A DNA stretch of 64,000 nucleotides, from positions 62,001 through 126,000 of the forward strand of contig JAKVPA010000003.1 of the NCBI GenBank assembly GCA_022482495.1. The letters run 5' to 3'. The stretch comes from Sphaerochaeta sp. (GTDB taxonomy: Bacteria > Spirochaetota > Spirochaetia > Sphaerochaetales > Sphaerochaetaceae). Of this stretch, positions 1 through 28,204 are shown in pieces. The notes below the pieces were generated by a model. The model did no database searches, had not been told where the DNA came from, and worked only from the letters and a program-made list of their open reading frames with translations. The translations under genes were made by a program, and so were the position numbers. The first letter of the stretch is position 1; each line of letters starts with the position of its first letter.

Positions 1-2134
1 TATCCATCATATTCAGGTTTCCTTTCCCGTCATTAAAATCCGTAATATAGGGAAGCGCCACCATTGTGGAATAATGATTGACAAAAACGGAACCCAAAAC
101 GTTGAAATCAATCTCATGGTTCAACGCGTTGAGATATTCGCCTTTGTCATAGAGAGGCCAGCGAAGTACGAGCGGAGCTGCCTGGAATACCGCGTATCTG
201 ATCATATTGGAGGAAAGAATTTGGCCATACCCTACTTCACCTTCCTGGAAACGTGTATTCTTCCACCATTCGCTGTATCGCCCATTTATTCCTTTTGCGG
301 TGACATGTTCCATCCCGGCAAAAGGCCCTTCCACAAAATCCCATGAATAATCAGGATAGGGAGGATTCAACGTCACCACATCATACCCTTCTGATGAGAA
401 AATCTCAGGAAGCAACGTGATGGCTTCATTCTGTTTCTGCTGAAGGGTCTTGTCCGTCCGCTTCTGCATCTTGATCGGAGTATAATCATACCCCCCATAC
501 AGTGTTGGGGTCCCATAGAGGGTATGGCTGCCAAACGAAATCGCATTCGGATAATAGGTAAAACCGGTGAATTGCTGATACAGCAACGGGTCTTCCTGAA
601 AAATGTACGGAACATATCCGCTGATGGCCCGGTCCAACATGATTACCAGCACATTCTTCCCGGTACGGGAAAAATGGAACATCGGCTCAAACTTGGTATC
701 ATCACTGATGGCTGTCTCTGTCTCCTCTTGGTGGGATAACAACTCGCGGTACTTCTGAGAAATCCCATGCATCCGAACCACGGACTGGGCGGAAACTGCA
801 ATCATAAGAATCACGAGGACAAAAGAGATGGCCCGAGAAAACCTCCGATGGAACAGCCAGGAAAGCAGACAAAAAAGTCCCACAAGCAGTCCAAGATTCA
901 CATAATTCTTGATGCCTTGCATTTTCATCAAGTCACTATTCGCAAAGCCCAAATCCGTAAATACGGTCCCATAATTCCCGGGGAACAAGAAGGTATTCAT
1001 CAAGGCTCCAAGGAAAACAACCCCGGAAAACACGACAAAGAACGGCTGAATCTTTTTGGGAAAAAGAAAATACAAGCACACCGGCCAGATGATGAAGCAC
1101 CCCAACGCCTGGAGCATGGTGATCCCCACAAAATCCAACGGACTGGCATAGGGTCCCATGTTGGCGAATTCCGTGGGGGAAGTGGAGATCAGATTCAAGG
1201 GTATCAGCGCGCCAATCAGCAATGTTACGCCCAGCATGCCAAGGAAAAACAACAGGAACCGGAGTCTGTCATGATCACATAACCACCCTACACAAGTGGC
1301 CGAATACCACTTGGCAAGACGATACCAAAGGGGGATAAGAAAGATGATCAACGAAATCGCGTAGATGGCATAAATCTTCCATTTCTGACCGGTCCCATGC
1401 TTGGAATAATATCCACTGATCCCCAGACACACCACACAGAAAATCCCGTACAACATGCGAAGCGGATGCCGCATCTTGTAAAAAATGTTCTTTACCAGCG
1501 ACAGAATATTGTTCATCGCCCAGTAAAGGACCAATCCCGCGGGAGAGGCGTACAGTATCACCAGAAAGACGGCGGCAAGAGCGTAAATCTGCACCTTCTC
1601 TCTTACCGGATGTCCTTTGGAGTAGATCGCCCCGCTGATGCAGTTGGCGACTGTCATGATGATGGGAAGCAGATTGAACGTCCGGCCCGCGATGTTGATC
1701 ATCCCATCCGGCGCGCCGAGATCTTTGATGAACCAGAATGACAATCCTTTCAGATCAGGATGATTGGACAGGAACAGGTATGCGGCGAGGAAGAACGGAA
1801 TCTGGATCAAAATGGAGAACGAAGAGCGGAGGGCGTAAATTGGCTTATAATCACATTCCCGGTAATAGGCAGACAGGAGCATGAACCGTTCGTCCCCTTT
1901 GAACACCTTCCGGATCTTCTTCACTTCCGGCGCCATTTCTGCTACTTTGTTTCGTTCCACTTCCTGCCAATGCTCGGCAACCATATAAATGGGAAGCGTG
2001 CACAACGTGACGACGAAGCTCAAACCGATAATCGCGACTCCGAAATTATCAGAGACCCGATACAAGGCGGTGAACGCAAGCTCGATCACCTCGGCGATGG
2101 GGAAAATAAACAAGGTATATAAAACGCTTCCCAT
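1..2134 (-). CDS. YidC/Oxa1-like domain fused to an alkaline-phosphatase-superfamily (LTA synthase/EptA-like) domain; 3' end outside window
   Basis: The frame is open from ATG at 2134 to the window edge, about 711 residues. Residues 1 to about 230 read like the YidC core: a start in a membrane helix, a charged stretch with KKIRKVFKGDERF, then LIQIPFFLAAYLF and a helical hairpin ending SPAGLVLYWAMNNI. About six more hydrophobic segments follow. From about residue 495 comes an extracytoplasmic domain starting VLVIMLDR, with a likely metal-binding Asp501, and GSHTLYGTPTLYGGY, in which Thr538 sits where EptA-type phosphotransferases have their nucleophilic Thr. The rest of the metal site lies outside the window. 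The start is one base after the stop of the CDP-glycerol transferase gene, with a GGGGAGG ribosome site, so the two are translationally coupled. The job is inferred: transfer of a phospho-alcohol group onto a surface polymer. The YidC part may be structural, not an insertase. Confidence 0.8.
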   Translation of the reverse strand, partial: MGSVLYTLFIFPIAEVIELAFTALYRVSDNFGVAIIGLSFVVTLCTLPIYMVAEHWQEVERNKVAEMAPEVKKIRKVFKGDERFMLLSAYYRECDYKPIYALRSSFSILIQIPFFLAAYLFLSNHPDLKGLSFWFIKDLGAPDGMINIAGRTFNLLPIIMTVANCISGAIYSKGHPVREKVQIYALAAVFLVILYASPAGLVLYWAMNNILSLVKNIFYKMRHPLRMLYGIFCVVCLGISGYYSKHGTGQKWKIYAIYAISLIIFLIPLWYRLAKWYSATCVGWLCDHDRLRFLLFFLGMLGVTLLIGALIPLNLISTSPTEFANMGPYASPLDFVGITMLQALGCFIIWPVCLYFLFPKKIQPFFVVFSGVVFLGALMNTFLFPGNYGTVFTDLGFANSDLMKMQGIKNYVNLGLLVGLFCLLSWLFHRRFSRAISFVLVILMIAVSAQSVVRMHGISQKYRELLSHQEETETAISDDTKFEPMFHFSRTGKNVLVIMLDRAISGYVPYIFQEDPLLYQQFTGFTYYPNAISFGSHTLYGTPTLYGGYDYTPIKMQKRTDKTLQQKQNEAITLLPEIFSSEGYDVVTLNPPYPDYSWDFVEGPFAGMEHVTAKGINGRYSEWWKNTRFQEGEVGYGQILSSNMIRYAVFQAAPLVLRWPLYDKGEYLNALNHEIDFNVLGSVFVNHYSTMVALPYITDFNDGKGNLNMMD

Positions 2135-2135
2135 C

Positions 2136-3377
2136 TTACTTAGCCTCCCCACCTATAAGCTGAGACTCCACGCTCACCAGATAGTCAACAACCCGGTTTG
2201 CCGCTTCACCTGGGTACATCCATGCCTCTTGTTTCGCCGCATGCCGTGCGTTTCTCAATTCCACTCTGTCAGAAGCGTGTTGGATGACATCCTTGATATG
2301 GGGGAAATCGGAAGGTTTCACCTCGATTCCAAATCTGCGAACCGCCTCAAACTGCCACATTTCATCCTTCACGTCCCCGGCATCGTACGGCCGTTTGTCA
2401 AAATCCTGCGCTACATAGATTCACCGGTTTGTCGTACAGGAAAGTATAGTCAAAGATGATCCCTGAGAAGTCGCTGATCATGATATCCGCACCTGCTCAG
2501 CGCGCCACTGTTGTCACTTCAAAATCCCATCTGACGTTTGGTTTCCCCCTATATCGTTTCTGAAGCGTAGTCCAACAATGCGCTTTTCAACCAATCGGGA
2601 TTGGGGATGCGGACGGACAATGACATCCCAACCGCTTTTCGACAAAGGATCCAACAAGGAAATCCCGTAGAGGGAAAGCAACGCGGACGGTCCCCAGGAG
2701 GGAGAAACGAGGACGGTAAAGGGATGGGATTTCTTCTCCATAGCGTCCCGCTTTTTCGAGAGGACATCCAGATATGTACATCCGACCACCACCAAGTCTT
2801 TGGGAGGAAGATGCCGTTTCTGCTCCAGATACTGAATGTCCTTTTTCTGGTATTCCCCGGTAAGCAACACCGCATCAAAGAAATCCAATCCGAACAGACG
2901 GTATCCGGTGGCATCGCTCGGGGCGTGAAGAATATGCACGTATTTCTTCACATCCTTGGAACGTTTGAGCTGGTAGACATCCAACGAGGGCGTGGTCATC
3001 AACACCACGTCAGCCCTGAGAAAGTTCAGTTTGGCGTACGCTTTGTTCCCCACCCCGATGTATTCGGCATGGACATGGTTCCACGACTTCTTCAGGACAG
3101 GATCATCTTCACTCCCTGTATAGTAAGCAAGAGGAAGTCCCCTGCTCTCAAATTTCTCGACCACCTGAGAAAACTCATTGAAGTATTGGCGTCCCTCACA
3201 GTAGATGACATACGGGACTGCGGGACGATTCATCTCCGCTCTGGCCTCTTTGGAGGAAAAGGTCATTTTCAATTTGACAAACAACGCGCGAAAAGAAAAA
3301 TACGCCGTCGCGGCGATCCCCACCACCACTGAGAACAGCATACTCCCCGTTCCGGGATCAATATACCAAACAATCAT
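2136..3377 (-). pseudogene. CDP-glycerol:poly(glycerophosphate) glycerophosphotransferase family, with at least five frame breaks
   Basis: The start is ATG at 3377, beginning MIVWYIDPGTGSMLF with one membrane helix. The N-terminal 280 or so residues are in one frame (VILMTT-like core, HILHAPSDATGYRLFG, VVGCTYLDVL, VLVSPSWGPSALL, VRPHPQS). The C-terminal end is in another frame and finishes at 2136. Between about 2585 and 2420 the protein can be rebuilt only by changing frame five times. The rebuilt segments include VRWDFEV, DNSGALSR, the family motif ADIMISDFSGIIFDY, and YVAQDFDKRPYDAGD. The family polymerises or primes glycerol- or ribitol-phosphate from CDP-alcohols at the inner membrane face, best known from Gram-positive teichoic acids. 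Reading-frame content is kept between breaks, so this is either a recent pseudogene or a badly sequenced patch. It lies between the coupled YidC-like fusion gene and an Omp85-like gene. Confidence 0.75.
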
Positions 3378-3430
3378 TGAAGAATTACCTGCCTTCCGCT
3401 GACGAGCATGGAACAAACCTCTCTTTTGTC

Positions 3431-5170
3431 TCAGAAAAAGAAATATAAACCAATGTACAATTCGTACTCAACAGAACCAGTCCCGTTTCCGGTAAGTTTT
3501 CGGTATACGTCTTCCATATTGAACCCCAAAGACGCCCGGATGGGATAAGCGGGATAGCGGTCCAGAATCACCACGCCTTCCATGCCCGCGCCAACCAACC
3601 AGTTGTCATTTCCGTTGTTCAATCCATTGACATCATTGACCAACGCGATATCAACAAACGGAATCGCATACGAATGGGCAAAATTCCGAAGCGTGATGAA
3701 CGAGGTGGTGAAGTTGCAGTTCAGCACCAACGCTCTCTTCCAAGCCTCTCCCTTAACATAAACATAATCATTGTTATCCCGAATACCGCGAATGTATTCC
3801 GACACATAGTCGTCGGTGTTACTTGGGAGGAAATAATATTTCTTGGAAGAAAGGATGCCAGAGAGCCGGAACGAAGGATTGAACCATGAGGTGGCAAAGG
3901 GAAACCATGAGGTACGAATTTCCAGCCATTGGTAATCGATATCACCCGGACGATATGGCCGACCTTCAAATGTTCGTTTGGGGAAGATGGCCATGTTCCC
4001 ATGGATCTGAAAATCCAACCCGGTACGGAAATTCCCCTTCCAGTTGATGGAAGAACGGGAAAGCGTGCTGTTGAATTCCCAAAACAACTCATACAGCAGA
4101 GGATCATCCGGATACATCTTGTTATGCAAAGTTATTTCATTATACCAATTGAACCAGTCCCGAACGTTGAACCCTGTTCCTATCGTGCCACTGATATCCA
4201 TCCAATCAAGAATACCGTATGCTCCCTTTGTTTCCAGCGAAAGCCGCGTATCGATCTGTTGCGTTCCGATTTTGAATCCATGGTAGCGGAAATGGGACAG
4301 GGTATAGAAATAATAATCCGACGTATTGACGTCATACGCAATGGATTTGTTGTACAGGGAAAAGCCTCCGAGGCTCAGCGCAAACGGCCCCCAATTGAAC
4401 GAGTTCCCTATTTGGTTAAAATACCAATCGCCTTGCAAATCAGCAGTTTTTGGATGCAGGTACAACCACATATTCATGGAAAGCGCCTTGTGGTCGATCG
4501 TCATGTTCTGAGGATTAAAATTGAAATAAAAATATGAGGATGTGGGATCCTGCATATTGTAGGAATACTGGGTCGCCAGATTAAGCCGGACTTGCTTTCC
4601 CAATGCCAGTTGACTGAGATTCATTTCTCCGTAGTACGTCCCTTCCTTCCAACCATTTCCCACGTCATCCTGGAACGCGCTGTCGGGAATGGTGACGTTT
4701 CCCGCGAGATACAGATTGGAAAGCTGCCCAAAGAGATTCTTATTGTATAATTTCAGTCCCACACGCGTGCCAATATTGGAATCGTACTTTCCATACGGGA
4801 ACGGAAGGATGGAGGACGCATCCACAATGATAAATGTGACCTGATAGAACCGGATGCCACGAGACTCGTTGGTATACACAAGTGCGTACTCCACCTTGCT
4901 GAACACCCTGAGGTTGACCAACTTCTGGACTTTGGCATCCAATGCCGCCCGCATTGCTTCTTCCGAAGGAAAGATTTCATCACCGGCAGGAACGATCCGG
5001 GAACGAAGGGCGCTTTCCGTCGTTTTGCCGGTAATGGTGAACGAATAACCGGCGATCATGAATTTCTGACTGGATGGAGCGGAATCACCTACTGCGTTTT
5101 GTTCGTGAGCCCACATGGAGATGCTCACAAAAAGAAGCAAGAGCACAAGTATGATATGTCTTTTTCTCAT
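3431..5170 (-). CDS. Omp85-superfamily-like outer-membrane beta-barrel protein
   Basis: The start at ATG 5170 is preferred because AAGGAG lies six bases upstream and the protein then opens with a clean signal peptide (MRKRHIILVLLLLFVSISMWA). Residues about 40 to 130 look like a single POTRA-type module (KLVNLRVFSKVEYALVYT, then VTFIIVD). This is followed by the Omp85-style entry into the barrel (PFPYGKYDSNIG, KLYNKNLFG). The remaining 400 or so residues alternate short aromatic and polar strands and end in YIGLYFFF, a C-terminal aromatic insertion signal. BamA itself has five POTRAs, so this is a shorter relative, more like a TamA/TpsB-type or lineage-specific member. Its place between Wzi-like barrels and polymer-synthesis genes suggests a role in placing surface polymer or its proteins in the outer membrane. 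Confidence 0.7.
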   Translation of the reverse strand: MRKRHIILVLLLLFVSISMWAHEQNAVGDSAPSSQKFMIAGYSFTITGKTTESALRSRIVPAGDEIFPSEEAMRAALDAKVQKLVNLRVFSKVEYALVYTNESRGIRFYQVTFIIVDASSILPFPYGKYDSNIGTRVGLKLYNKNLFGQLSNLYLAGNVTIPDSAFQDDVGNGWKEGTYYGEMNLSQLALGKQVRLNLATQYSYNMQDPTSSYFYFNFNPQNMTIDHKALSMNMWLYLHPKTADLQGDWYFNQIGNSFNWGPFALSLGGFSLYNKSIAYDVNTSDYYFYTLSHFRYHGFKIGTQQIDTRLSLETKGAYGILDWMDISGTIGTGFNVRDWFNWYNEITLHNKMYPDDPLLYELFWEFNSTLSRSSINWKGNFRTGLDFQIHGNMAIFPKRTFEGRPYRPGDIDYQWLEIRTSWFPFATSWFNPSFRLSGILSSKKYYFLPSNTDDYVSEYIRGIRDNNDYVYVKGEAWKRALVLNCNFTTSFITLRNFAHSYAIPFVDIALVNDVNGLNNGNDNWLVGAGMEGVVILDRYPAYPIRASLGFNMEDVYRKLTGNGTGSVEYELYIGLYFFF

Positions 5171-5244
5171 CCTCTTCTCCTTGTACAAGACTTCGTCAGC
5201 CTATCCCACAGAAGAAAAACAGTCAATTCTGCACAAGGAAATGA

Positions 5245-6999
5245 TTACCAAGAATACCGGACACTTCCCACGAATTGCGCGTCAAACGAAAATCCATCCA
5301 AGGTCTGAGAATCCGCGACATAGGTGGTTTTCCCGATCAAATCCATCCTCCCGATCAAGGTAAGATGCCAGGGTTTCCACGTGTAGGTGGATTGGAAGGA
5401 AAGCATATTCGTCCAAAGCAGGTCATCGGAGAGGAACGTCGCGGCCTTTACCTCTTCCCAGGAAGAAAACATGTTGATCTCCCCATGCACCATGGAGAAC
5501 AGGGTCCCTTCCAGTTTCAGATTTCCCTTACTCCAGACATTACGCCATTGCAACGCCAACGCATCACCACCATAGGGGAAACCCAAGTAATCATATAAAT
5601 AGTAATACGCGTTCTCATCAACACCCCTCACCAATCTGATACGCCGTTGGGCAATGATAAAGTCAATCCCTTCCCGTCGATACAATGCGGGAAGCGTCCC
5701 AACCAGTTCCACGTCGGTGGTATAGAGGCCGCCTCCCAATTCCTTGGCATGCCGCGCTCCAAGGGAAAGCCCTCCGGCGGCAGGATCGTTGTTTCCACCT
5801 TCCTCATTAATGGCTGTCGCCTGATCCATACAGAATTGGGCATATAAGCTCCACCCAGGCGTGAACGTATAGTCCAATTCCACCGTAAGGAGGGAATTAA
5901 ACAGATTGGAATCGGAGAGATTATGGAAGATCAAGGAAGGATTGAGGTAACTGGCATTCAACGACCCATTGCTGTTGTAATACATCAACGCCTCGGATAT
6001 GGTGAATTTCACCTTTTCCCACCAAGTGAACTCCAACCGATGACTGAGCATCATACGGATACCCGTTTCAATTCCATTCCACGTTGTACCTGAATAATTC
6101 ATTGGGTACGGTGTATAAAATCCATAGACTGTATCAAATTTGAAGTTTTGGGAAAACAGGCTGAACCGGAGATAATCCATGAAATCCAGATGGTTGTCAT
6201 ACATGAAATTCCCGATCCGCGAGTTTCCCCAAGAGAGCTTGTCCCTGCTAAGATTGATGTTCCAGTGGTTTCCGCCGAACGAAAACACCGCCCGTTTTGG
6301 CCATGTGTACTCCCAGTCATTGGGACTGAGCATCACATTTGACTGGAACATATGCTGGTACAGGGAAATACGCAAACCAGGAAAGCTTGGAGTAATGGTT
6401 CCGACTAAATCCGTATTTTCTGTTGTGTAGGCCCCAACATTCTCCGTTGACGATGCGTTGAACGTATGAAATGCGGCATCCTCTCCATTTTGAGAATCGT
6501 ACGCCTGCCGTGCTGTCAGCCCATACCCATACTGTGCTTCCATTCCCAGATATACGTGATCAAAGAAACTGGCGTCCAATCGGGCGCGGAGCATTGGCTG
6601 ACGATCCGTATAGCTGTAGTTCCAATCCAAATACGACGTGTAATCTTCCGTATTGGTATGGAAATACCCTTCCAGATTGGCATCCAGATGCAAACTGAGA
6701 GAGGTGGAATCATCCAGCTTCCATTTGGGCTGCTCGTCAAGCGTCTGCATGACTCGGTCACGGATACGCTCAGCCTCAGGAGTCAATATCGCGGGGAGAC
6801 GATCCATGATCATCCGGGTTTCGGTGACCGTCCACGGCCGACTCCAGGAAGCGGCAGGGAGTCCTGTCAGGAGGTAGAGCGTGTCGACATCGTCATACAG
6901 GGGATTTGACAGCGGAATGATCTGCTGGGGCGTCGCGGCCCAAAGAACTGTGGCGGAGAGCAACGATATAACCAGACAGACCCGCACGATTCGTCTCAT
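5245..6999 (-). CDS. Wzi-like outer-membrane beta-barrel protein
   Basis: The protein has 584 residues with a signal peptide (MRRIVRVCLVISLLSATVLWA) and a strong GGGAGG ribosome site just before ATG 6999. After a short helical N-terminal part (PLYDDVDTLYLLTGL), it is a long beta-strand-rich region. Recurrent hallmarks shared with the proteins at 42443-44095 and 44092-45907 are SRDKLSWGNSRIGN, SHRLEFTWW, YLNPSLIFHN and YLGFPYGGDAL. It ends in VRYSW, an aromatic C-terminus suited to barrel insertion. The Wzi family are outer-membrane lectins that anchor group 1 capsule, so surface-glycan binding is the likely role, although this subfamily is divergent. It is about ten bases downstream of the next Wzi-like gene and so co-transcribed with it. 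Confidence 0.7.
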   Translation of the reverse strand: MRRIVRVCLVISLLSATVLWAATPQQIIPLSNPLYDDVDTLYLLTGLPAASWSRPWTVTETRMIMDRLPAILTPEAERIRDRVMQTLDEQPKWKLDDSTSLSLHLDANLEGYFHTNTEDYTSYLDWNYSYTDRQPMLRARLDASFFDHVYLGMEAQYGYGLTARQAYDSQNGEDAAFHTFNASSTENVGAYTTENTDLVGTITPSFPGLRISLYQHMFQSNVMLSPNDWEYTWPKRAVFSFGGNHWNINLSRDKLSWGNSRIGNFMYDNHLDFMDYLRFSLFSQNFKFDTVYGFYTPYPMNYSGTTWNGIETGIRMMLSHRLEFTWWEKVKFTISEALMYYNSNGSLNASYLNPSLIFHNLSDSNLFNSLLTVELDYTFTPGWSLYAQFCMDQATAINEEGGNNDPAAGGLSLGARHAKELGGGLYTTDVELVGTLPALYRREGIDFIIAQRRIRLVRGVDENAYYYLYDYLGFPYGGDALALQWRNVWSKGNLKLEGTLFSMVHGEINMFSSWEEVKAATFLSDDLLWTNMLSFQSTYTWKPWHLTLIGRMDLIGKTTYVADSQTLDGFSFDAQFVGSVRYSW

Positions 7000-7009
7000 A
7001 TTCCCTCCC

Positions 7010-8782
7010 CTAATAGTACAACTTCACCCCAATCGTTCCATACAGGCCGAATACAGGTGACGCCCAAGCCCCGAGTTCTGTGGTATATCCATATTTGTTC
7101 TGATCATTGCTCTCATTTGTAATCGGTCTGTCCCATTCCGACTGGAAACGAAGAGATCCACTAATTGTCAGGGGGAACGATGAGAACTGTTTCTCAAGCC
7201 CAAGCTCAAGAGAAAGCTTGTAGTTGCCAATGAAAGCGAAGAAATCCTCATAGGCATACAAATCGTCACTGTCGTAATCAAAATCCGTACTCAAATTTGA
7301 TTTTCCATACTGATAACTTCGCTGCTGCAACTTCACCGTCGTCTTACCGGTCAGCCCCTCAGCGAGGCTTGTCCTCAGGCCAAGCAGATACTCGATGGTA
7401 TTCTGGCTAAGCGAATAGCCGAGAGCCTGTCCTTTATTGATATATGTCGTGGAATAATCAGCATCGTCATCATCCTTGTTGAGATAGTGGGTATATACAA
7501 ATGGGGAAAGATAGGTTATTTGGGCGGTCAGTGTCGTAAAGGAACCCACATTCAGAGGAATATCCATCCCACCCTGTAGTCCAATCGCATTCCGTGGATT
7601 AACCAGGATCTTCCCGAATCCCCCATATGCGCTCACCTCAGTGGCGACAAAGGAACCGTACATCCTCGCAATCCCAGGAAGCGTATATTGGAAATCCATG
7701 GATGCGATGCAATTATCACGGTCGCCATCAGCACCCTGCACGATATAATAGACAGAAAACGGATTGAGGTACCCGAACAGCAACCGACGCCGATACACCA
7801 CCCCTTCACTTACCCCAAGGGTAAAATGTGGCGTGACATCCCATTCGACACGGTGTGCGGAATAATTATTCTGATAGGTAAGGGATTCCGACCTGGTATA
7901 ATCAACAACCGTCTCATTCCCATTATCCGTCATATTGAAAACGCCCAACGATCCTGTCACAAACCCCATCCGAAGATTCGGGGCAAAGGAGAAGATGGCA
8001 TCCACTCCATCAAAGGAACGGGCGGTTCCTGAGAGCAACAGGTTACCCAAACCAGGACCCCAGTCTCGCGGGATGGAGGCAAATCGGACGATCAAGCGGG
8101 AATCCAAGAAGCTTCCCACGAATTCGGGAGACATGGAATTGCTGTTGGCGAATCCCGCCATGGGCAATGATTGGGCGGTTCCTTCTTGTACCCATTTGAG
8201 GTACTGGTAAAATCCTTCGGCGGGAATGGAAAACTCACTGGGGAGGAACACGCTGTCATCCAGACGATCCACGCGGAAGGTAAAATCCATCGAATAGCTG
8301 AGGTGGGTGCCCAAATCACCTTTCAGGTAGGCAGTGACGGCATTGCGGCTGTCGTAGGCGAACGAGGGATTTTCCAACAAGGTGCCACCGGTTTCCTGAA
8401 CCGCGAAACGCGCGCCAATCGTTACGTTTGACTGAAATCGTTCGTCGTTGAACCGATAAAACCCCTGACGCCACACATTTTGGTTGGGAATTTCATTTGA
8501 ACCATACTGCCGTTCCAACTCATTGATCCAGAACCGGACATCACTCCGTTCTTTTTCCGTGATCAAATCTGACTGGGAGATCTCTTCAAGATATCTGATC
8601 GCGTCATTCGCCGTATAAGGACGTATATTGGGAATCTGAGAAATCACGCCTTTCGCGACGGCATTATCCATGATCTGGTACACGCGTGAATCGACCGGAA
8701 CGGAAACGTATCTCGCAGCGAAAAGCGTTTCAGCGCTTATGGCAAGCACGATACCACACAGAAATAAAAACGTTCGCTTCAT
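7010..8782 (-). CDS. Capsule assembly Wzi family protein
   Basis: The protein has 590 residues and is the first gene of the minus-strand surface block, about 70 bases downstream of the promoter at 8858-8887. It begins with a signal peptide (MKRTFLFLCGIVLAISAETLFA). An N-terminal helical part (VPVDSRVYQIMDNAVAKG, RPYTANDAIRYLEEI) resembles the start of Wzi proteins. The barrel contains the family signature around RDWGPGLGNLLLSG and FDGVDAIFSF, then HRVEWDVTPHFTLG and LFGYLNPFSVYY. It ends in GVKLYY. Wzi is a monomeric 18-stranded outer-membrane protein that binds nascent capsule at the cell surface. The assignment is firmer here than for the three relatives in the window because the WGPG-type motif is intact. 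Confidence 0.78.
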   Translation of the reverse strand: MKRTFLFLCGIVLAISAETLFAARYVSVPVDSRVYQIMDNAVAKGVISQIPNIRPYTANDAIRYLEEISQSDLITEKERSDVRFWINELERQYGSNEIPNQNVWRQGFYRFNDERFQSNVTIGARFAVQETGGTLLENPSFAYDSRNAVTAYLKGDLGTHLSYSMDFTFRVDRLDDSVFLPSEFSIPAEGFYQYLKWVQEGTAQSLPMAGFANSNSMSPEFVGSFLDSRLIVRFASIPRDWGPGLGNLLLSGTARSFDGVDAIFSFAPNLRMGFVTGSLGVFNMTDNGNETVVDYTRSESLTYQNNYSAHRVEWDVTPHFTLGVSEGVVYRRRLLFGYLNPFSVYYIVQGADGDRDNCIASMDFQYTLPGIARMYGSFVATEVSAYGGFGKILVNPRNAIGLQGGMDIPLNVGSFTTLTAQITYLSPFVYTHYLNKDDDDADYSTTYINKGQALGYSLSQNTIEYLLGLRTSLAEGLTGKTTVKLQQRSYQYGKSNLSTDFDYDSDDLYAYEDFFAFIGNYKLSLELGLEKQFSSFPLTISGSLRFQSEWDRPITNESNDQNKYGYTTELGAWASPVFGLYGTIGVKLYY

Positions 8783-11775: not shown

Positions 11776-13929
11776 TCAGATTTCAAACCAACGAATTCCG
11801 TTCTCCTCCAGATCCAACGGAAAGGAGGAGCCATCACCCCGGTACACCACGGTGTGCTGGCTCTGGTAGGTGTTGTTCACCACACTGTACTTCCCGTTTT
11901 TCACGTAGGCGTGCACCTCCACGTTGGGGTTCTCACTGAACCACGTGTGGAGCGCGCCTTCCCCATGGGATGCCCAGAGGATGGCGCGATGCAGCAACCG
12001 GTTGTTGGCAAATGAGTACGGCAGTCCGCTGAGATAGACACAACGTCCACAGCCGTATTCGTTGACGGCGAGTTGCACCTCTTTGCCCCGTTGCACGACG
12101 ATTTCGGTACCAGGAAGCGCGTAGATGTTTTTCTTCCCTTCCCCGAAATTGATGGGTTCCTGGATGTCTTCCGTAATAAAGTGGGGATGCTCCTCCCAGT
12201 TGTACTTGTCGTAGCCCAACGTGAATCCCGTCTCCTTCTCCACCCCAAGCGCATCGGAGAGCTGGAAGAACCGTCCCTGCCACGGGTGCCCGGTCGGTTC
12301 CCCCACCCCGATGAATCCCCCGCCGTTGGCGATAAAACCACGGATGGCGGAGATGACCAAAGGATCACACCAGGCGTCCCCGCCGGTGTGGGCGGTGTCG
12401 GCGTCCCCGACGTTGATGATCACATCGATATCCTTCAGCAGATCAGGGTTTTGGCGGATATCATCGAAGTTGATGAACCGCACATCAAACGGGGCGCCGG
12501 AAAGCGCTTCGATGATGCCGGCGTAACTGTAGTTCTGTTTCTGGTACAGGGCGTGGTGGACCATGTGGGCGGCCCAGGAACGCATTTTTCCCCAACAGTT
12601 CAGCACGGCGACCCGCTTGAAGCAGAACGGTGTGGTTCCTTTGATGTTGTCGTACAAGGTCCGGAACTCGTCGCAGATATCCTGGACGCAATCGATGAAG
12701 TCAGGGAATTCCAGGGCGAGTTTCAGATATCCCCCATAGCCGATACGGTCGACGGGTTTCCGAAGGATGGCGCGCCGGGCGGTGACCCAGTTCCGTTTTG
12801 CCTCCCCCACCGGGTCTCCCCCTTGATGGAACGTATCCGGGAAAAAGTACGGAAGGAAACGACCCTCGGTGTATTTCACACCTTGGATGTCGCTGATCAA
12901 CCGAAGGGTGCTGCCGTTGCCGACACTGCCTACCACGGCGTCCAACCCGATGGAGGCGAACCCGTCCATGTACGGCTCGATGCCGATCCAATGGTCCCCC
13001 AGGAACATCATCGCCTCTTTTCCTTCCTGATGGGTGATGTCCACCATCTCCTTGGCAAGGGCGCACACCTCTTTGTGCTGGAAGCGGACAAAATCCAAAT
13101 ATTCTCTGGAAGGGATCCGGTACTGGTTGTTGTAGTACCCCTGGTCGATCAGGTATTCCGGACGGAACGGATAGCCCACTTCCTTTTCGAATTTCGAGAG
13201 GATGTACGGACTGACTGAAGCGGTGTATCCACACCAATCCACGTACTTCTCCCGGGCCTTGTCATCGAAAACCAACGTGAACAGGTGGAAGAATGTGGTG
13301 AAACGGATCACATCGACGTAGGGATGTTCCTTGATGAACGTCCGGAGGCGTTCCATGGCGTGGGCCCGCGTCTTTGGCTGGCGCACATCGAACGTGATCT
13401 GCCGCTCCACCCCTTTCCATCCATTGACCACGGCGTTGTACATGTGCACCGGATCCCACATGATGAACGCCAGGAACGAGACGGTGTACTGGTGGTACGC
13501 TTCGGTGGCGATGACCACGTCCCCCGTCGACTCGTCATAGGACCATTTGTCCAAAGGCACCACCTCTCCGGTGGTCCGGTCGATGACTTCCCACCACTTC
13601 TTTCGATCGGTGGGATTGACCTTCAGCATGTCAGGATACAGCCCTTCCATCAAATGGATGCGGAGCTCCGACCCCTGGGAGGTCTTGTGCCCCGTCATCA
13701 GATACATCTGCTGGATTTCGTCCGGGTTGGCTTTGGCCCAGGCGTTGTCCTTGCGCGTCGTATAATAGGTGGCGTACACCTTCGCCTTGGTCTCCCTGAG
13801 TTGGGGAGGAAAGTCGGTTCCGTCACAGTCGCGGAGCGCGTCCGCGCCCCAGCGTTTCATGATTTCCATTGTCTGCGGCACAACGTCAACATCCGTCGGG
13901 ATGGTGACCCTTCCGTTTATTTTGCTCAC
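11776..13929 (-). CDS. GH112 beta-galactosyl-disaccharide phosphorylase (galacto-N-biose/lacto-N-biose or galactosyl-rhamnose type)
   Basis: About 717 residues from GTG 13929, chosen because GGGAG lies seven bases upstream; TTG at 13950 is the longer alternative. The family hallmarks are visible: an N-terminal RWGADALRDCDGTDFP, a TIM-barrel core with TFFHLFTLVFDD, MMFLGDHWIGIEPYMDGF, VGNGSTLRLISDI and YFFPDTFHQGGDP, then an amidotransferase-like part (VINVGDADTAHTGGDAW, FIGVGEPTGHPWQGRFFQL). GH112 enzymes split beta-1,3-galactosyl-HexNAc or beta-1,4-galactosyl-rhamnose with phosphate, giving galactose-1-phosphate. The sequence alone does not let me choose between them. It is the last gene of the sugar ABC operon that begins at 17115, so the disaccharide is probably imported intact and split in the cytoplasm. 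Confidence 0.9.
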   Translation of the reverse strand: MSKINGRVTIPTDVDVVPQTMEIMKRWGADALRDCDGTDFPPQLRETKAKVYATYYTTRKDNAWAKANPDEIQQMYLMTGHKTSQGSELRIHLMEGLYPDMLKVNPTDRKKWWEVIDRTTGEVVPLDKWSYDESTGDVVIATEAYHQYTVSFLAFIMWDPVHMYNAVVNGWKGVERQITFDVRQPKTRAHAMERLRTFIKEHPYVDVIRFTTFFHLFTLVFDDKAREKYVDWCGYTASVSPYILSKFEKEVGYPFRPEYLIDQGYYNNQYRIPSREYLDFVRFQHKEVCALAKEMVDITHQEGKEAMMFLGDHWIGIEPYMDGFASIGLDAVVGSVGNGSTLRLISDIQGVKYTEGRFLPYFFPDTFHQGGDPVGEAKRNWVTARRAILRKPVDRIGYGGYLKLALEFPDFIDCVQDICDEFRTLYDNIKGTTPFCFKRVAVLNCWGKMRSWAAHMVHHALYQKQNYSYAGIIEALSGAPFDVRFINFDDIRQNPDLLKDIDVIINVGDADTAHTGGDAWCDPLVISAIRGFIANGGGFIGVGEPTGHPWQGRFFQLSDALGVEKETGFTLGYDKYNWEEHPHFITEDIQEPINFGEGKKNIYALPGTEIVVQRGKEVQLAVNEYGCGRCVYLSGLPYSFANNRLLHRAILWASHGEGALHTWFSENPNVEVHAYVKNGKYSVVNNTYQSQHTVVYRGDGSSFPLDLEENGIRWFEI

Positions 13930-13992
13930 ACCAATACTCCCGCTGACCAAGTCAGCTTTCTTTTGTTCTGATAGATTGGGACGTTCGGAACG

Positions 13993-14853
13993 TTATCCCT
14001 TGATGCCACCCCCGGTCACCCCCTGGATGATCCGCTCGGAGAGGAACAGGTACAGGACGAACGTCGGGAGGAACACGATGATCACCGCGGCGAACAAGCC
14101 ACCGTAATCACCGGTATACTTCATCGCGTTGACGATCTGCAGCAATCCAACGCCGACCGGCGTCATCTTCTCCGTATTGGCGAAGATCAAGGCCATGAAG
14201 AACTCGTTCCACACCCCAAGGAAGTTGAAGATCGTCACGGTGACCAACGCCGGCTGGACCAGCGGCAGCATGATGATCCAGAACGTTTTCCCCGGAGGAC
14301 AGCCATCGATCGCCGCCGCTTCCTCGTAGGTTCGGGACAGCGTGGCGAAAAAGTTCAACAGATAAATCGTCGTGTACGGCACGTGGGAAAAGATGTACAA
14401 TGCGATCAGCAGGATGCGTCCTTTGATGCCCCAGCGGGTCGTCATGGAGAACAATGGCATGATGATCATCACCGCCGGAATGCTCATGGCGACGATCAGG
14501 CTGGAACGGATCATCTTGTTGGAGAAGAACTTGTACCGGGAAAGCACATAGGCAGCCGGAGCGGAGATGAAGATCACGACGACGCAGGTAACCACGGCGT
14601 ACAGCAATGAGTTGCCGAAGAAGCGGGAGACGTTCTGCTGTCTCCACGCCTTGGCGTAGTTTTCAAAATGGAGTCCTGTCTTGAACGCGAACACATTTCC
14701 CGAGAAAATCTCACGGGATGTGGACAGGCTTGCGGCGAGGATCCACAGGAGGAACGCCGCGGCGAACGCGATCCAGGCGATCAACACGATGTATCCGGGA
14801 AGAAAATGCAATTCCCGTTTCCAATTGATGCGGTCATAGGGTGATCGTTTCAT
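13993..14853 (-). CDS. Carbohydrate ABC transporter permease, MalG/UgpE type
   Basis: 286 residues with six predicted membrane helices. The EAA loop that contacts the ATPase is clear: EEAAAIDGCPPGKTFWIIML. An N-terminal cytoplasmic start (MKRSPYDRINWKRELHFLPG) precedes the first helix. It lies between the partner permease (ten bases upstream) and the GH112 gene, so it should import the disaccharide handled by that enzyme. No ATP-binding subunit is encoded in the operon; a shared MsmK/UgpC-type ATPase elsewhere is expected, as is common for such systems. Confidence 0.9.
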   Translation of the reverse strand: MKRSPYDRINWKRELHFLPGYIVLIAWIAFAAAFLLWILAASLSTSREIFSGNVFAFKTGLHFENYAKAWRQQNVSRFFGNSLLYAVVTCVVVIFISAPAAYVLSRYKFFSNKMIRSSLIVAMSIPAVMIIMPLFSMTTRWGIKGRILLIALYIFSHVPYTTIYLLNFFATLSRTYEEAAAIDGCPPGKTFWIIMLPLVQPALVTVTIFNFLGVWNEFFMALIFANTEKMTPVGVGLLQIVNAMKYTGDYGGLFAAVIIVFLPTFVLYLFLSERIIQGVTGGGIKG

Positions 14854-14862
14854 GGCTACCTC

Positions 14863-15758
14863 CTAGTATTCCACGTCGTCGTCTTTGAACAGACGGTTCA
14901 TGACGAAATAGATGGCGACGATGATCAGCGCCAACACGACACCTACCGCGGCGCCGGCACCGGCGTCACGTTGGGAGTTTCCTTTCGAACCAAATACCGT
15001 ATTGTACAGATAGACGACAGGGACGATGGTCGCCGCTTCGGTATCCACCGGAGAGAACATCATCGACCAGAGGAAGAACGTCGTGGTATGGATGCTCCAG
15101 AAGGTGATGTTGGTCTTCGTCACGCCCTTGAGCAAGCGGCATGGTGATCTTCATCGCCTGCTGGACTTTGCTCGCGCCATCGATCGGTCGCCGCCTCGTA
15201 GATGTCGGCGGGGATCTTCTCAATGCCACTGATGAAGATCAACATGTAGTACCCTACCGCGCCGAAAATGAACGAGAACAACATCGCCCAGAACTTCAGG
15301 TCGGTTCCGAGCCACTTGACTCCGGTCCCGCCGAAGAAACGGATCATCTGGTTGAGCATGCCGTAATCCTGGTTGAACACGTACTGGATCCACATGGTGG
15401 CCAGCGCGACGGCGCTGATGATGTTCGGCATGTAGATCGCCGCGCGGAAGAACTTCTTGAACCGGATGCCGCTGGTCAGGATCATGGCGAAGATCAACGC
15501 GAGGGACAGCGTCAGGATGCCACCGACCAGCCAGATGCGCACCATATTCCACATGGCGCTTTTGAACGAAGGACTATGGAAAATCTTCGCATAGTTCCCC
15601 AGTCCATAAAAACTCCAGGTTGACGTTGCCGCGGTGACGCTCTCAATTCTGAAGAAACTCATCACCAGTGTCCTGGCGACAGGATACAGGTACATGATGA
15701 ACAACGTCAGGATGCAAGGTGTCAGAAACCCGATGATCAGCTTTTTGTCGTTGCGCAT
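14863..15758 (-). CDS. Carbohydrate ABC transporter permease, MalF/UgpA type (two frame breaks)
   Basis: The first 190 or so residues (from MRNDKKLIIGFLTPCILTLF) are intact and carry the expected helices, up to IEKIPADIYEAAT. The frame then breaks: deleting one base near 15180 restores the EAA loop (IDGASKVQQAMKITMP), and deleting one T near 15133 restores LLKGVTKTNITFWSIH and the last two helices, ending RLFKDDDVEY at 14863. The repaired protein has the normal length for the family, about 297 residues. Both breaks are one-base insertions within about 60 bases, which suggests sequence error since the rest of the operon looks functional. It pairs with the MalG-type permease downstream. Confidence 0.85.
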
Positions 15759-15845
15759 GGCATTCCCTCAATCGGCCTGTCGGCCGTACTTCCGAAAACA
15801 AACGGAGGAAGGCCGCCGGATGGCGACCCTCCCCAATCAAACCTG

Positions 15846-17115
15846 TTATTTGTACAGAGCGTCCATCGCCTTGGCGAAATCAGCGCCGGTGGCGAATTTG
15901 CCCTCGAACAGCGCGATGATGTTCGTCTTGACGTTCGCCTTGATGTCCGGGTTGGCGTTCAGCCCCATGCTCCAGGAAAGCGGAGAAGAGGTGGCCTGCA
16001 GCGTCTCGATCGTCCCGTTCATGATGGCAGGGGGCGACGTTGCGCGGATCAGCCGGAATCTGGCTGGCGGCGTTGGCCATCTTCTGATCATACTCGCCGC
16101 TGGTCAGCAGCATCAGGAAGTCAAACGCGGCCTGCGGATTCTTGCTGTACTTGGTGATGGCCAACGAGTTGGCGCCGGCATAGGCGTTGGTGGAACCACT
16201 GCCCGCGGGAGCGGCAATCGTCGGATAGTTGAACATACCCCAGTCGATGTTGGCGCCGGTGGTGTTGTTCACCTCGGAGCAGACATAGTTGGCGCAGACG
16301 ATCATGGCGACCTTGCCGGTCAGACCAATCTTGTTCTGGCTGGAGGGGAACTCATCCGGAGCGCCCGCTGCAAGATAGCCGGCCTTGCGGTAGTCGATGA
16401 TATCCTGGGCGGCCGCGACGGCTCCGGCGTTCTTCGACCATCCTCCGTTCTTCACCAGTTCCGTGGTGACAGCCTGTCCGATGCGGCGGTCAAGATGGTA
16501 CCCAAAGAAGAAGTCGGCGTACGCGCTGTCCAGCGCCATCGGCTCATACCCTTTGTCCACCAGTTTCTGGTTGACGGCCAGGAACTCATCCCATGTGGTA
16601 GGAATGGTGATACCCGCGTTCTTGAAGATTTCCTTGTTGTAGAAGATGCCTCCGACCTGCGGCTGCTCGGTGATGGCCGCCAGGAAGCCGGCCCACTTGG
16701 TGATCTCTTCATTGAAGCACGCATAGCTCTGGGCATCGTAGTTGGCTGCCTTGGCCATGTCGGTCAGATCGTATACGTAATTCTTGTAGACGTTTCCGAT
16801 GCGGCGGTAATCCTCTTCGAAAACATCAATGTTCTCGCCCGCTTCAAGCGCCGTGGCGATGATCTTGTTGATGTCACGACCCTTCCATTCGATGTTGATC
16901 TTCGCGCCGGTCTTTTCCTCAAACGCCTTTGCGGCGGCGGCGACCACCTGCCCCTGCGGCTCATTCGAGTTCCACATCGACCAGAAATTCAGGGTGACTC
17001 CACTGTAGACACCTTCCGCTTTTTTCGTGGTAGTTTCGCTGGATCCCGCGGCGAACGCGAAGCACGCAGCAGCCATCAACAGCACCACAGTGACAACCAA
17101 TCGTTTCCTGTTCAT
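15846..17115 (-). CDS. Sugar ABC transporter substrate-binding lipoprotein or protein (one frame break)
   Basis: The start is ATG 17115, directly behind GGAGGTACT. A signal sequence (MNRKRLVVTVVLLMAAACFAFAAGSS) is followed by a family 1 solute-binding fold (LNFWSMWNSNEPQGQ, FEEKTGAKINIEW, GIFYNKEIFKNAGI, PTTWDEFLAVNQKLV, GKVAMIVCANYV, NSLAITKYSKNPQAAFDFLML). At about 16030 a run of five C residues breaks the frame. With one C removed, VAPAIMNGTIETLQATSSPL continues into an intact C-terminus ending MDALYK. The protein is the outer-face receptor of the disaccharide importer and the first gene of the operon, with a promoter at 17161-17189. Confidence 0.88.
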
Positions 17116-17160
17116 AGTACCTCCAATTACCCCCACTACGGGTTTTCACACTTTTTCCAT

Positions 17161-17189
17161 ATCGTAGGGGCCGTTCCCCACTTGAACAA
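17161..17189 (-). promoter_or_regulatory. Promoter of the disaccharide-utilisation operon
   Basis: On the minus strand TTGTTC (17189-17184) and TACGAT (17166-17161) are 17 bases apart, about 45 bases before the solute-binding protein start. A palindrome CAATTAATTG (17191-17200) sits immediately upstream and could be part of a binding site for the divergent AraC regulator. That last point is inference. Confidence 0.5.
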
Positions 17190-17254
17190 TCAATTAATTG
17201 CCCTCTTTTTTAGAATTATTGCGTTCACCATGTTGTTCTGCTATACTTCGCACC

Positions 17255-18133
17255 ATGAGTACGCATCGAATGATGATCAACTTCCACTACCTGCCTGTCA
17301 TGCCACAGGTATTGTACGTCACCCACTCGAAATATGAGAAGGACTGGGCGTCCAATCTCCACTCCCACGCATTCACCGAATTCATCTACATTGAAAGCGG
17401 GAAAGGAGAGATCTGCACCCAGACCCAATCGTTTCCGGTGGAGAAGCAGGATTTCATCGTGTTGCTCCCCAATCTGATGCACACGGAGAAATCATCGGCG
17501 GACCAGCCGTTGGAATACTACGTCCTTGGAGTCTCCAACATGTTGTTCAAAAATGATCCGGAAGACATCAGTTCGTATTGCCCGTTGTACGACTTGGGAA
17601 ACATCAATGACCGGATTCATTCCCTGATCGTCTCCATGTACCACGAGATGCATTCCCAGATCAACGGGTACGAACTGATGGTCGCCAGCCTGTTCCTGCA
17701 GATCATCGTGACGTTGACGAGGAAGATGCGGCTGGAGTTCAGTTTTGCTGAAAGCCACAACATGCGCAGAGAGATCGCCAACGCCAAGAACTTCATCGAC
17801 AACCACTACATGGAGAACCTGACGTTGGACCAGATCGCTACGAAGAGTTACCTGAGCAAGTACCATTTGATCAGGGAGTTCCACCATCACGTCGGAATGA
17901 CTCCGATGGAATACCTCTCGGAACGCCGTCTGGAAGAAGCGAAGATCCTGTTGGGCAGCACCAACATCAGCGTCTGGGAGATCGCCAATGAGATTGGGTT
18001 TTCCTCGTCAAGCTACTTCACTCAGCGGTTCAAGGAGACCTTCGGCATGACCCCGCTGTCCTACCGCAAGCGTTCCCTCCCCCAGGATATCAACCAGAAA
18101 GGTCCGCTTGCCAACGGCCTGGTCACCGGATAA
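17255..18133 (+). CDS. AraC-family transcriptional regulator of the disaccharide operon
   Basis: Start ATG 17255 (MSTHRMMINFHYLP), 292 residues. An upstream in-frame start at 17198 would add residues with no similarity to the family. The N-terminal half is a cupin-type sugar-sensing domain (WASNLHSHAFTEFIYIESGKG, FIVLLPNLMHTEKS). The C-terminal 100 residues hold the two helix-turn-helix motifs of AraC (LDQIATKSYLSKYHLIREF, VWEIANEIGFSSSSYFTQRF, FGMTPLSYRK). It is transcribed away from the sugar ABC/GH112 operon, sharing the 139-base gap with it, which is the usual arrangement for a local activator responding to the imported sugar. Confidence 0.88.
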   Translation: MSTHRMMINFHYLPVMPQVLYVTHSKYEKDWASNLHSHAFTEFIYIESGKGEICTQTQSFPVEKQDFIVLLPNLMHTEKSSADQPLEYYVLGVSNMLFKNDPEDISSYCPLYDLGNINDRIHSLIVSMYHEMHSQINGYELMVASLFLQIIVTLTRKMRLEFSFAESHNMRREIANAKNFIDNHYMENLTLDQIATKSYLSKYHLIREFHHHVGMTPMEYLSERRLEEAKILLGSTNISVWEIANEIGFSSSSYFTQRFKETFGMTPLSYRKRSLPQDINQKGPLANGLVTG

Positions 18134-18291: not shown

Positions 18292-20092
18292 ATGTCAGAT
18301 TTACAGAGTTTTGCCGATTTAGGATTGTCGGAACAGACCTTGCAGGCCCTCAAGGAAAAGGGCTTTGAGGAACCCACCAAAATACAGGCCGCCTGCATCC
18401 CCCTGCTGTTGAAGAACAAGGTGGATGTCATTGGGCAGGCACAGACCGGAACAGGAAAAACCGCGGCCTTCGGGCTTCCCATCCTGGAGATCGTCGATCC
18501 TTCCGACCACGATGTCCAGGCGTTGATCCTCGCCCCCACCAGGGAACTGGCCGTTCAGGACGCCGAGGAGATCAACAGCTTGAAGGGAGACCGCCACTTG
18601 GAAGTCGCCGCCATCTACGGCGGGGCGTCCATGGGATTGCAGTTCCGCATGCTGCAACGAGGCGTCCAGGTGGTCGTCGGGACCCCAGGGCGTGTATTGG
18701 ATCACCTGCGCCGGGGCACGCTTCGGCTGGACAAGCTGAAGTTCATGGTGCTTGATGAAGCGGATGAGATGCTGGACATGGGATTCATCGACGACATCGA
18801 GGAAGTGCTCAAACAGACTCCGGCTGAGAAGCGGATGCTCTGTTTCTCCGCCACAATGCCCGCACCCATCATGCGCCTTGCGGAGAAGTTCATGCATGAT
18901 CCGGAAATCGTACGGGTCAAACAGGAATCCATCACCCCGGTGCTGACCGACCAGGTCTATTTCGAAGTGCGGGAGTCAGACAAGTTCGAGGCCCTCACCC
19001 GGATCATCGACATGGAGGATAACTTCTACGGCATTGTTTTCTGCCGTACCAAGATCCAGTGCGATGAGATCGGACGGAAGCTGCAGGCCCGCGGGATATG
19101 ACGCCGAGGCGCTCCATGGAGATCTCTCCCAGCCGGCTCGTGAAGCGATCCTACGCAAAATGAAGGAGCATTTGATCTCCATCGTCGTGGCCACCGACGT
19201 CGCCGCCCGTGGCATCGACATCCAGAACCTCACCCATGTGATCAACTACTCGCTCCCGGAAGCCCCGGAGGAATACATCCACCGGATCGGACGTACCGGA
19301 CGAGCGGGAAAATCAGGAACCGCCATCACGTTCATCACCCCGAGGGAATTCCGCAAACTTTCCTTCATCCAGCGGGTCGCAAAAGCGGAGATCCGGCGTG
19401 AGGAAGTTCCCGATCCCTCTCAGGTGGTGACGGCCAAACGGGCACGAATCCTGTCAGAGATGATGAACCGTCTCTCCGACGAGCACGACTTCTCCGTCTA
19501 TGATGGCATCGCTGAACAGCTCCTTGCCGACCATGACCCCAAGGAAGTGGTCTCTTCGCTGTTGGAATACTGCTACAAAGACGCGCTGGATGAATCCAAG
19601 TACCATGATCTGGATACCGTCGACGCGCGCTTTGATCGTTCTGGGAGGTCGGACCGCAAGGACCACAGACGCAGACGCGACGACGACGAAGCCCCCAGTG
19701 AAGCGAATGACGGCTACACCCGGCTGTTCATCGCCCGTGGTGAGAAGGATGGCCTGGACAAGCAGACGCTGACGGATTACCTGACCGAACAGGTGGGCGC
19801 CAGAGAATCGGATTTCCAGGATGTCACCGTCCAGGACGAATTCAGTTTTGTCTCCGCCCCGCTTGATGTGGCGGAGCGTGTCCTGAAAGCGTTCGCCACC
19901 AAGGATCCCTCCCAACGACCCATCATCACCAAAGCGCGGCCGGACAACCCCAACGGCAGGCATCTTGCTCGTCGTGGTGGCGGCAGACGCAGGTTTGACG
20001 ATGAACCGTTCCGCCCCCGTTTTGGGAGCCGTGATGACCGCCGTTCCGGCGGGAAACGAAAAGGGAAAAGCAACGCCGAAGGAAAACGTTGA
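18292..20092 (+). CDS. deaD: DEAD-box ATP-dependent RNA helicase, DeaD/CsdA type (one frame break)
   Basis: The helicase motifs appear in order: Q motif region (FADLGLSEQTLQALKEKGF), AQTGTGKT, PTREL, GGAS, TPGRVLD, DEAD, SAT, then after the break VVATDVAARGIDI and HRIGRTGRAGKSG. At 19094-19096 an extra G in a GGG run stops the frame after LQARG; removing it gives LQARGYDAEALHGDL, the conserved helicase sequence. Downstream lies a DbpA-type RNA-binding domain (RLFIARGEKDGLDKQTL, FSFVSAPLDVAERVLKA) and a basic Arg/Gly-rich tail (RRGGGRRRF, KRKGKSN). The repaired length, about 600 residues, is normal for DeaD. The role is RNA unwinding in ribosome assembly and mRNA turnover. Confidence 0.93.
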
Positions 20093-28078: not shown

Positions 28079-28085
28079 TGAAGTG

Positions 28086-28157
28086 TCCTGGGGGTGGCCT
28101 GAAAGGCCTGAGATTATACCCGATAACCTGATCTGGATCATACCAGCGTAGGGAGTG
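28086..28157 (+). promoter_or_regulatory. TPP riboswitch (THI element)
   Basis: The conserved core is read directly: GGGGGTGGCC, GGCCTGAGATTATACCC, then AACCTGATCTGGATCATACC and AGCGTAGGGAGTGG. These are the thi-box signature segments that bind the pyrimidine and pyrophosphate of thiamine pyrophosphate. It lies about 45 bases before the thiB start and 10 bases after the predicted -10 box. I see no strong terminator hairpin between aptamer and start codon, so control of translation initiation is more likely than attenuation. It is known to repress thiamine uptake when TPP is plentiful. Confidence 0.96.
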
Positions 28158-28204
28158 GAGAACAATCAACAATACAGTCCCCGGCAAAACTACAGGAGGT
28201 GCTT

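Follow-up and report, generated by a model that had tools for sequence, protein, structure and literature searches.

TagF-like polymerases make teichoic-acid-like capsules in Gram-negative bacteria (PMC5974469, PMC8262930). In treponemes, the glycolipid anchor of the outer membrane has been described as nearer lipoteichoic acid (LTA) than lipid A (PMC4818014). Treponema denticola also possesses a phosphonate pathway, PepM-Ppd-PntC/AEPT, that leads to cytidine monophosphate (CMP)-activated 2-aminoethylphosphonate (CMP-AEP). Its cytidylyltransferase, Tde1415, has been shown to act on AEP and contacts the amine through glutamates E104 and E196, and Rice et al. 2019 left the steps after activation undescribed (PMC6697681). 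Here, a 64,000-nucleotide stretch of Sphaerochaeta sp. DNA (the window, G000:C3:62001-126000), from a 2.25 Mb genome that is 95.8% complete, was compared with Sphaerochaetaceae, Treponema, and Spirochaetales relatives. Its left end encodes GPT, a PF04464-like phosphotransferase with a cytidine diphosphate (CDP) or CMP donor, and YidC-AP, a YidC fold fused to an alkaline phosphatase (AP)-superfamily domain. The two are an obligate, strictly co-inherited pair. We read them, with a probability of about 0.55, as a two-step system that decorates a surface glycan or glycolipid with a small phospho or phosphono group bearing an amine. The group is most likely phosphoethanolamine in this genome and AEP in relatives.

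Of 109 genomes sampled from the class, 21 have GPT, and exactly these 21, which represent 12 genera, have YidC-AP. The other 88 genomes have neither gene. The co-occurrence has a phylogeny-blind p value of 6.6e-23, and in the set of relatives (31 genomes) GPT and YidC-AP are found together in 7 and separately in none. Up to three YidC-AP copies stand beside a single GPT, with three each in the L091 and L105 loci. By inference, several copies per GPT would fit several acceptors that share one loaded lipid. GPT and YidC-AP are also present on short contigs (L101, L106, and L108) of metagenome-assembled genomes labelled Coriobacteriales, Myxococcales, and Clostridia. Either mis-binning of spirochaete DNA or transfer may account for these contigs.

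The neighbourhood of the pair was surveyed in 80 loci from public genomes together with the loci of relatives, for a total of 93 GPT genes. In 46 of the 93, a cytidine triphosphate (CTP)-dependent activation module lies within 200 bp of GPT. These modules are PepM-Ppd-PntC/AEPT, a nucleotidyltransferase (NT)-CobD fusion, a winged helix-turn-helix (wHTH)-LicC-HisC fusion, or an NT alone, and the three main kinds suggest amino-bearing headgroups. The first is orthologous to the T. denticola donor module and stands beside the pair in one relative (G004) and in many Treponema; the PntC/AEPT protein of L013 matches Tde1415 (6PD1/6PD2) at E=7e-259. Both amine-contacting glutamates are kept in 13/13 AEPT fusions, in 11/11 NT-CobD fusions, and in the Sphaerochaeta genome under study. 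The NT domain of the wHTH-LicC-HisC fusion matches LicC (1JYK) at 1e-24, with C/D in place of the two glutamates. At L094:8013-10001 and in twelve similar Treponema loci, this wHTH-like/LicC-like cytidylyltransferase/HisC-like aminotransferase fusion is situated between YidC-AP and GPT. The GPT tree groups by module (30 changes compared to 54.4 when shuffled), with module swaps present and with near relatives contributing to the clustering. NT-CobD is enriched in genomes that have the pair (7/21 versus 4/88, p=8e-4). Four named genomes with no module at the locus (T. putidum, Breznakiella, Treponema Marseille-Q4130, and T. socranskii) carry PepM elsewhere, and PepM is missing from three that do have a local module (T. 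saccharophilum, T. parvum, and T. bryantii).

Searches of the Sphaerochaeta genome found no PepM, TagD (TIGR01518), or LicD. Its proposed chemical logic resembles that of the T. denticola pathway, where a CMP- or CDP-linked amino headgroup is made, but NT-CobD takes the place of PepM, and GPT and YidC-AP are proposed for the later steps. The fusion lies just left of the window beside YidC-AP, from L001:15554 to ~17385 with one frameshift (L001 is C3:44001-62500, the stretch to the left of the window). It joins a PntC/LicC-type cytidylyltransferase to a CobD-like pyridoxal phosphate (PLP) domain that resembles phosphoserine/phosphothreonine decarboxylases. The PLP domain matches TIGR01140 at 1.6e-51 and 175 bits, which is below the equivalog cut-off of 290. 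Its best match in the PDB is 6OUX, annotated as a "threonine phosphate decarboxylase-like enzyme" (8.7e-45), followed by CobD-like and HisC-like structures, and Salmonella CobD (1LC5) is matched at 1.3e-30. We take 6OUX to be SMUL_1544 of Sulfurospirillum. SMUL_1544 has been proposed as a supplier of ethanolamine phosphate (PMC4585668). In another genome of the same genus (G002), PepM-Ppd-PntC/AEPT is found beside a homologue of the Wzi protein encoded in this locus.

The YidC-AP gene is on the minus strand at -601..2152 in window coordinates (L002:1400-4153), with 1..2152 inside the window. An earlier note, written from the window's letters alone, had described a fusion of a YidC-like protein to a phosphotransferase, and this is confirmed by Pfam (60KD_IMP, 4e-24; Sulfatase, 6e-6) and by the predicted fold. 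The complete protein has 917 amino acids and is composed of a YidC fold (~1-222), an EptA/PbgA-type membrane bundle (~283-470), and a periplasmic AP-superfamily domain (~487-917) that is probably a transferase. Residues D507, T544, H722, D785, and H786 are kept in 97/97 sequences. Of these, T544 is the predicted nucleophile, D507, D785, and H786 are the predicted metal ligands, and H722 is a conserved His. The structure was predicted for a 912-amino-acid Treponema homologue, with a predicted local distance difference test (pLDDT) score of 89.7. The YidC part of the model superimposes on Bacillus halodurans YidC with a Z score of 18.3 and a root-mean-square deviation of 2.8 Å over 208 residues. 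The leading Foldseek matches of the model are EptA, PbgA, MCR-1, LtaP, and LtaS, and PbgA aligns with residues 283-912, which contain both the membrane bundle and the catalytic domain. YidC-AP thus resembles EptA/MCR and LtaS/LtaP/PbgA in its membrane bundle and periplasmic AP-superfamily domain with conserved Thr nucleophile and metal ligands. Unlike these enzymes, the domain is fused behind a YidC fold and is obligatorily paired with a CDP/CMP-dependent transferase.

The other half shares its fold and its 60KD_IMP match with the YidC/Oxa1 insertases but differs from them at the groove. Where E. coli has an Arg (R366) and the spirochaete housekeeping YidC a Lys, all 96 fusions with a residue at this site carry S, T, N, or Q. 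A separate housekeeping YidC is also encoded in the Sphaerochaeta genome (G000:C2). With the groove charge gone from all copies and a housekeeping YidC present, the YidC half probably does not act as an ordinary insertase.

GPT is encoded at 2136..3377 on the minus strand and has an N-terminal membrane anchor, YIDPGTGSMLFS. The open reading frame (ORF) at 2514-3416 (300 amino acids) covers its N-terminal two thirds. Even at E=1, Pfam returns nothing for this ORF, NCBIfam returns nothing useful, and a PF04464 profile search of the whole genome is likewise empty. The lack of a Pfam match is explained by the frameshifted C-terminal third of the gene. There, indels leave the segment at ~2415-2580, which holds the ISDFSG motif, out of frame and with stops. 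A tblastn search with an intact relative as query follows frame -3 to ~2600, frame -2 over 2565-2401, and then frame -3 again. Intact homologues (L011, L013, L014, and L015) score 30.7-40.2 bits against PF04464 and exceed the cut-off of 22.1. The CDP-glycerol glycerophosphotransferase named in the earlier note therefore stands at the level of the family through its intact homologues, while the window ORF is frameshifted and unmatched. By sequence, GPT can be placed as a divergent PF04464-like enzyme that is intact in relatives. Among the 93 homologues, the YIDPGTGS, HxxH, and RPHPQ motifs are nearly invariant and SDFS is strongly conserved; the HxxH and RPHP histidines, H149 and H256, are kept in 93/93 and 92/93, respectively. 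These presumably correspond to the two catalytic histidines of TagF. The PF04464 scores and the HxxH and RPHP motifs are what GPT shares with TagF/TagB and with the TagF-like Gram-negative capsule polymerases (PMC5974469, PMC8262930). It differs from TagF/TagB in its own N-terminal YIDPGTGS membrane anchor and in donor genes nearby that point mostly to amino-alkyl phosphate or phosphonate rather than to glycerol. The GPT profile has no true match in the PDB, so its TagF fold is a presumed one.

The break in GPT could be read as a dead gene, but this is not favoured. Assembly indels are a simpler and more likely explanation than gene decay because several conserved neighbours show apparent splits of the same kind. 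In L001, these are the genes for Wzi (606-2484), WcaJ (14127-15528), and the NT-CobD fusion (15554-17385). In the window, the ORF pattern shows splits at 14863-15758, 15846-17136, and 18292-20092, and all of the splits fall within the same 38 kb. The split genes in the window, as named by eye, encode an ATP-binding cassette (ABC) permease, a solute-binding protein, and a DEAD-box helicase.

In the proposed mechanism, a zwitterionic decoration of the CDP-ethanolamine/CMP-AEP type, NT-CobD would decarboxylate O-phosphoserine to phosphoethanolamine and activate it to CDP-ethanolamine; in relatives, PepM-PntC/AEPT would supply CMP-AEP in its place. GPT, anchored in the inner membrane through YIDPGTGS, would then move the group from the CDP or CMP donor to a membrane acceptor. 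Judging by its fold and conserved residues, YidC-AP would carry the group on Thr-544, in the periplasm, before handing it to its final destination, a glycan or glycolipid, in the manner of EptA, MCR, and LtaS. More speculatively, the YidC-like half probably presents or moves the lipid-linked group and does not insert proteins. The glycan itself would be made by the WcaJ, glycosyltransferase, and Wzx genes and reach the outer membrane with the Wzi and Omp85-like barrels. A bolder version, which we consider unlikely, makes YidC-AP a conduit for lipid headgroups: GPT attaches phosphoethanolamine or AEP to a membrane lipid, the uncharged YidC groove lets the headgroup cross the inner membrane, and the EptA-like domain delivers it. 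If true, it would supply the phosphonyl-transfer step that is still missing and give the Oxa1/YidC superfamily a new role.

Several points weigh against the two-step reading. The substrates of GPT, YidC-AP, and NT-CobD are predicted ones, as are the intermediate on a lipid, the direction in which the group would travel, and any action of the barrels on the product. GPT is broken in this assembly. Structural realignment of YidC-AP is tied at Z scores of 18-20 among sulfatases, phosphonate monoester hydrolases, EptA, and LtaP/LtaS. Because sulfatases and phosphonate monoester hydrolases score level with the transferases, the modelled fold alone leaves transfer versus hydrolysis undecided. PepM is not enriched genome-wide with the pair (4/21 versus 9/88, p=0.27), and the idea that its presence tracks the pair across genomes was rejected. 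NT-CobD is also encoded in two genomes that lack the pair: G014, where its neighbours are housekeeping genes, and G017. In G017, it lies near two LicD genes (L122:3782-10772), and LicD may be an alternative transferase for the same donor. At L053:3715-9300, an NT-CobD fusion is accompanied by PepM and Ppd with no AEPT, and its PLP domain may be the AEP transaminase. Other donors are possible in minorities of loci, where the neighbours are IspD/LicD (L015, L069, L070, and L095) or TagD-like (L014).

The equal structural scores of hydrolases and transferases leave room for a periplasmic YidC-AP that trims or recycles phospho or phosphono groups, or for a GPT-dedicated insertase, with GPT alone decorating in the cytoplasm. 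This is improbable. The top Foldseek matches (EptA, PbgA, and MCR-1) are transferases of phosphoethanolamine or phosphoglycerol that sit in the membrane and have a matching bundle and catalytic domain, up to three YidC-AP per GPT suits acceptor-specific transferases, and the loss of the groove charge in all copies speaks against an insertase. The G014 locus raises another possibility, that NT-CobD makes CDP-ethanolamine for the phospholipid phosphatidylethanolamine (PE), that its adjacency to the pair is incidental, and that the pair uses another donor. Polysaccharide islands do collect unrelated nucleotidyltransferases. Immediate operonic adjacency nevertheless recurs in many lineages, with the enrichment given above, and the same position is occupied by PepM modules, which make no PE. 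We regard this explanation as quite unlikely.

The earlier note favoured a teichoic-like glycerol-phosphate polymer held at the outer membrane. On this reading, which can be widened to ribitol phosphate, GPT would be a TagF-like polymerase that uses CDP-glycerol and YidC-AP an LtaS-like enzyme. The note's premise, that CDP-glycerol polymerases belong to Gram-positive cells, has been dated by the Gram-negative capsule polymerases cited above. GPT homologues do pass PF04464, the AP domain resembles LtaS/LtaP, and treponeme glycolipids are described as LTA-like (PMC4818014). The pair is also beside IspD/TarI-like genes in some loci and beside TagD-like and YfhO genes in L014. In that locus (L014:2949-10140, G028), TagD-like, YidC-AP, GPT, and YfhO genes stand in a row; this divergent branch may be a genuine polyol-phosphate (LTA-like) version that uses CDP-glycerol. 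TagD-like neighbours are found for only 2/93 GPT genes, however, and one of these is a doubtful 443-amino-acid match. For the Sphaerochaeta genome, the glycerol-phosphate reading is unsupported because the tagD gene that the note had proposed to look for is absent, the adjacent activation gene is the PntC/LicC-type cytidylyltransferase-CobD fusion, and CMP-AEP genes stand beside the pair in relatives. A glycerol or ribitol polymer is thus a doubtful alternative to the transfer of an amino-bearing group.

Teichoic-like Gram-negative capsules and LTA-like treponeme anchors have been published before. What is new is that GPT and YidC-AP are strictly co-inherited and that the modules for amino-headgroup supply beside them are interchangeable. 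In the literature on YidC-AP-type fusions, 6OUX, and CDP-ethanolamine glycan routes, no description of the pair was found. We regard the pair as a strong candidate for the step or steps after CMP-AEP that install phosphonates on bacterial surfaces. As a unit co-inherited over 12 genera that swaps CMP-AEP and CDP-amino-alcohol modules, it is a concrete candidate for the steps left open by Rice et al. The pair also gives a genetic handle on the outer-membrane glycolipids of treponemes, which are free of lipopolysaccharide, and it documents the fusion of an EptA/LtaS-type enzyme to a YidC fold whose insertase charge is lost.

GPT and YidC-AP belong to a block of five co-directional minus-strand genes at 1-8782, the coordinates and strand of which the earlier note had right. 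Its view of a surface-glycan export locus in a diderm, with a CDP-dependent phosphotransferase beside outer-membrane barrels, also holds, and the arrangement recurs in relatives. Barrel1 (3431..5188, minus strand) has a POTRA-like unit followed by a beta-rich domain. In its model, a beta-alpha-alpha-beta-beta (POTRA-type) unit is found at residues 42-123, with a mean pLDDT of ~59-85 in 10-residue blocks. The remainder is beta-rich and of very low confidence (pLDDT ~30 for the barrel, 39 for the whole model). The best 11 Foldseek matches, obtained from this poor model, are all BamA. Barrel1 is probably an Omp85-like outer-membrane protein, as had been suggested; the model is consistent with this assignment and falls short of proof. 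A PHROGs search returned nothing for it, and its homologues adjoin WcaJ in Treponema clusters. Barrel2 (5245..6999) and Barrel3 (7010..8782), both on the minus strand, are putatively Wzi-like by their homologues: PF14052 is matched by 2 of 12 aligned proteins. The two proteins themselves have no Pfam match. PDB profile searches with both barrel alignments found nothing.

The note had proposed to extend the locus to the left, and there the block runs on for ~18 kb as a surface-glycan cluster. Past YidC-AP, L001 encodes the NT-CobD fusion, the initiating transferase WcaJ, DUF6675, glycosyltransferases, ManC, and NeuB. Also present are a fusion of a CMP-nonulosonate synthetase with a KDN-9-phosphate-phosphatase-like domain, a Wzx flippase, and a Wzi that matches PF14052 at 1.9e-9 (L001:606-1874). 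This is a surface-glycan locus, probably with a nonulosonic acid. The NeuB-family synthase and the CMP-nonulosonate cytidylyltransferase/KDN-9-phosphate-phosphatase-like fusion are located at L001:3756-5855 (window about -14240..-12140), and because of them a nonulosonic acid such as Kdn is probably part of the glycan. Beside NeuB, L001:6273-7511 encodes a 412-amino-acid protein that has no match in Pfam or NCBIfam. Its QHPR motif recalls GT-B polysialyl and CDP-glycerol transferases, and it is a possible nonulosonate transferase.

Elsewhere in the window, a large ORF at 11776-13950 adjoins sugar ABC transporter genes and is presumably similar to galacto-N-biose/lacto-N-biose phosphorylase. 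A thiamine pyrophosphate (TPP) riboswitch (Rfam RF00059, 61.7 bits) is present at 28080-28172 on the plus strand.

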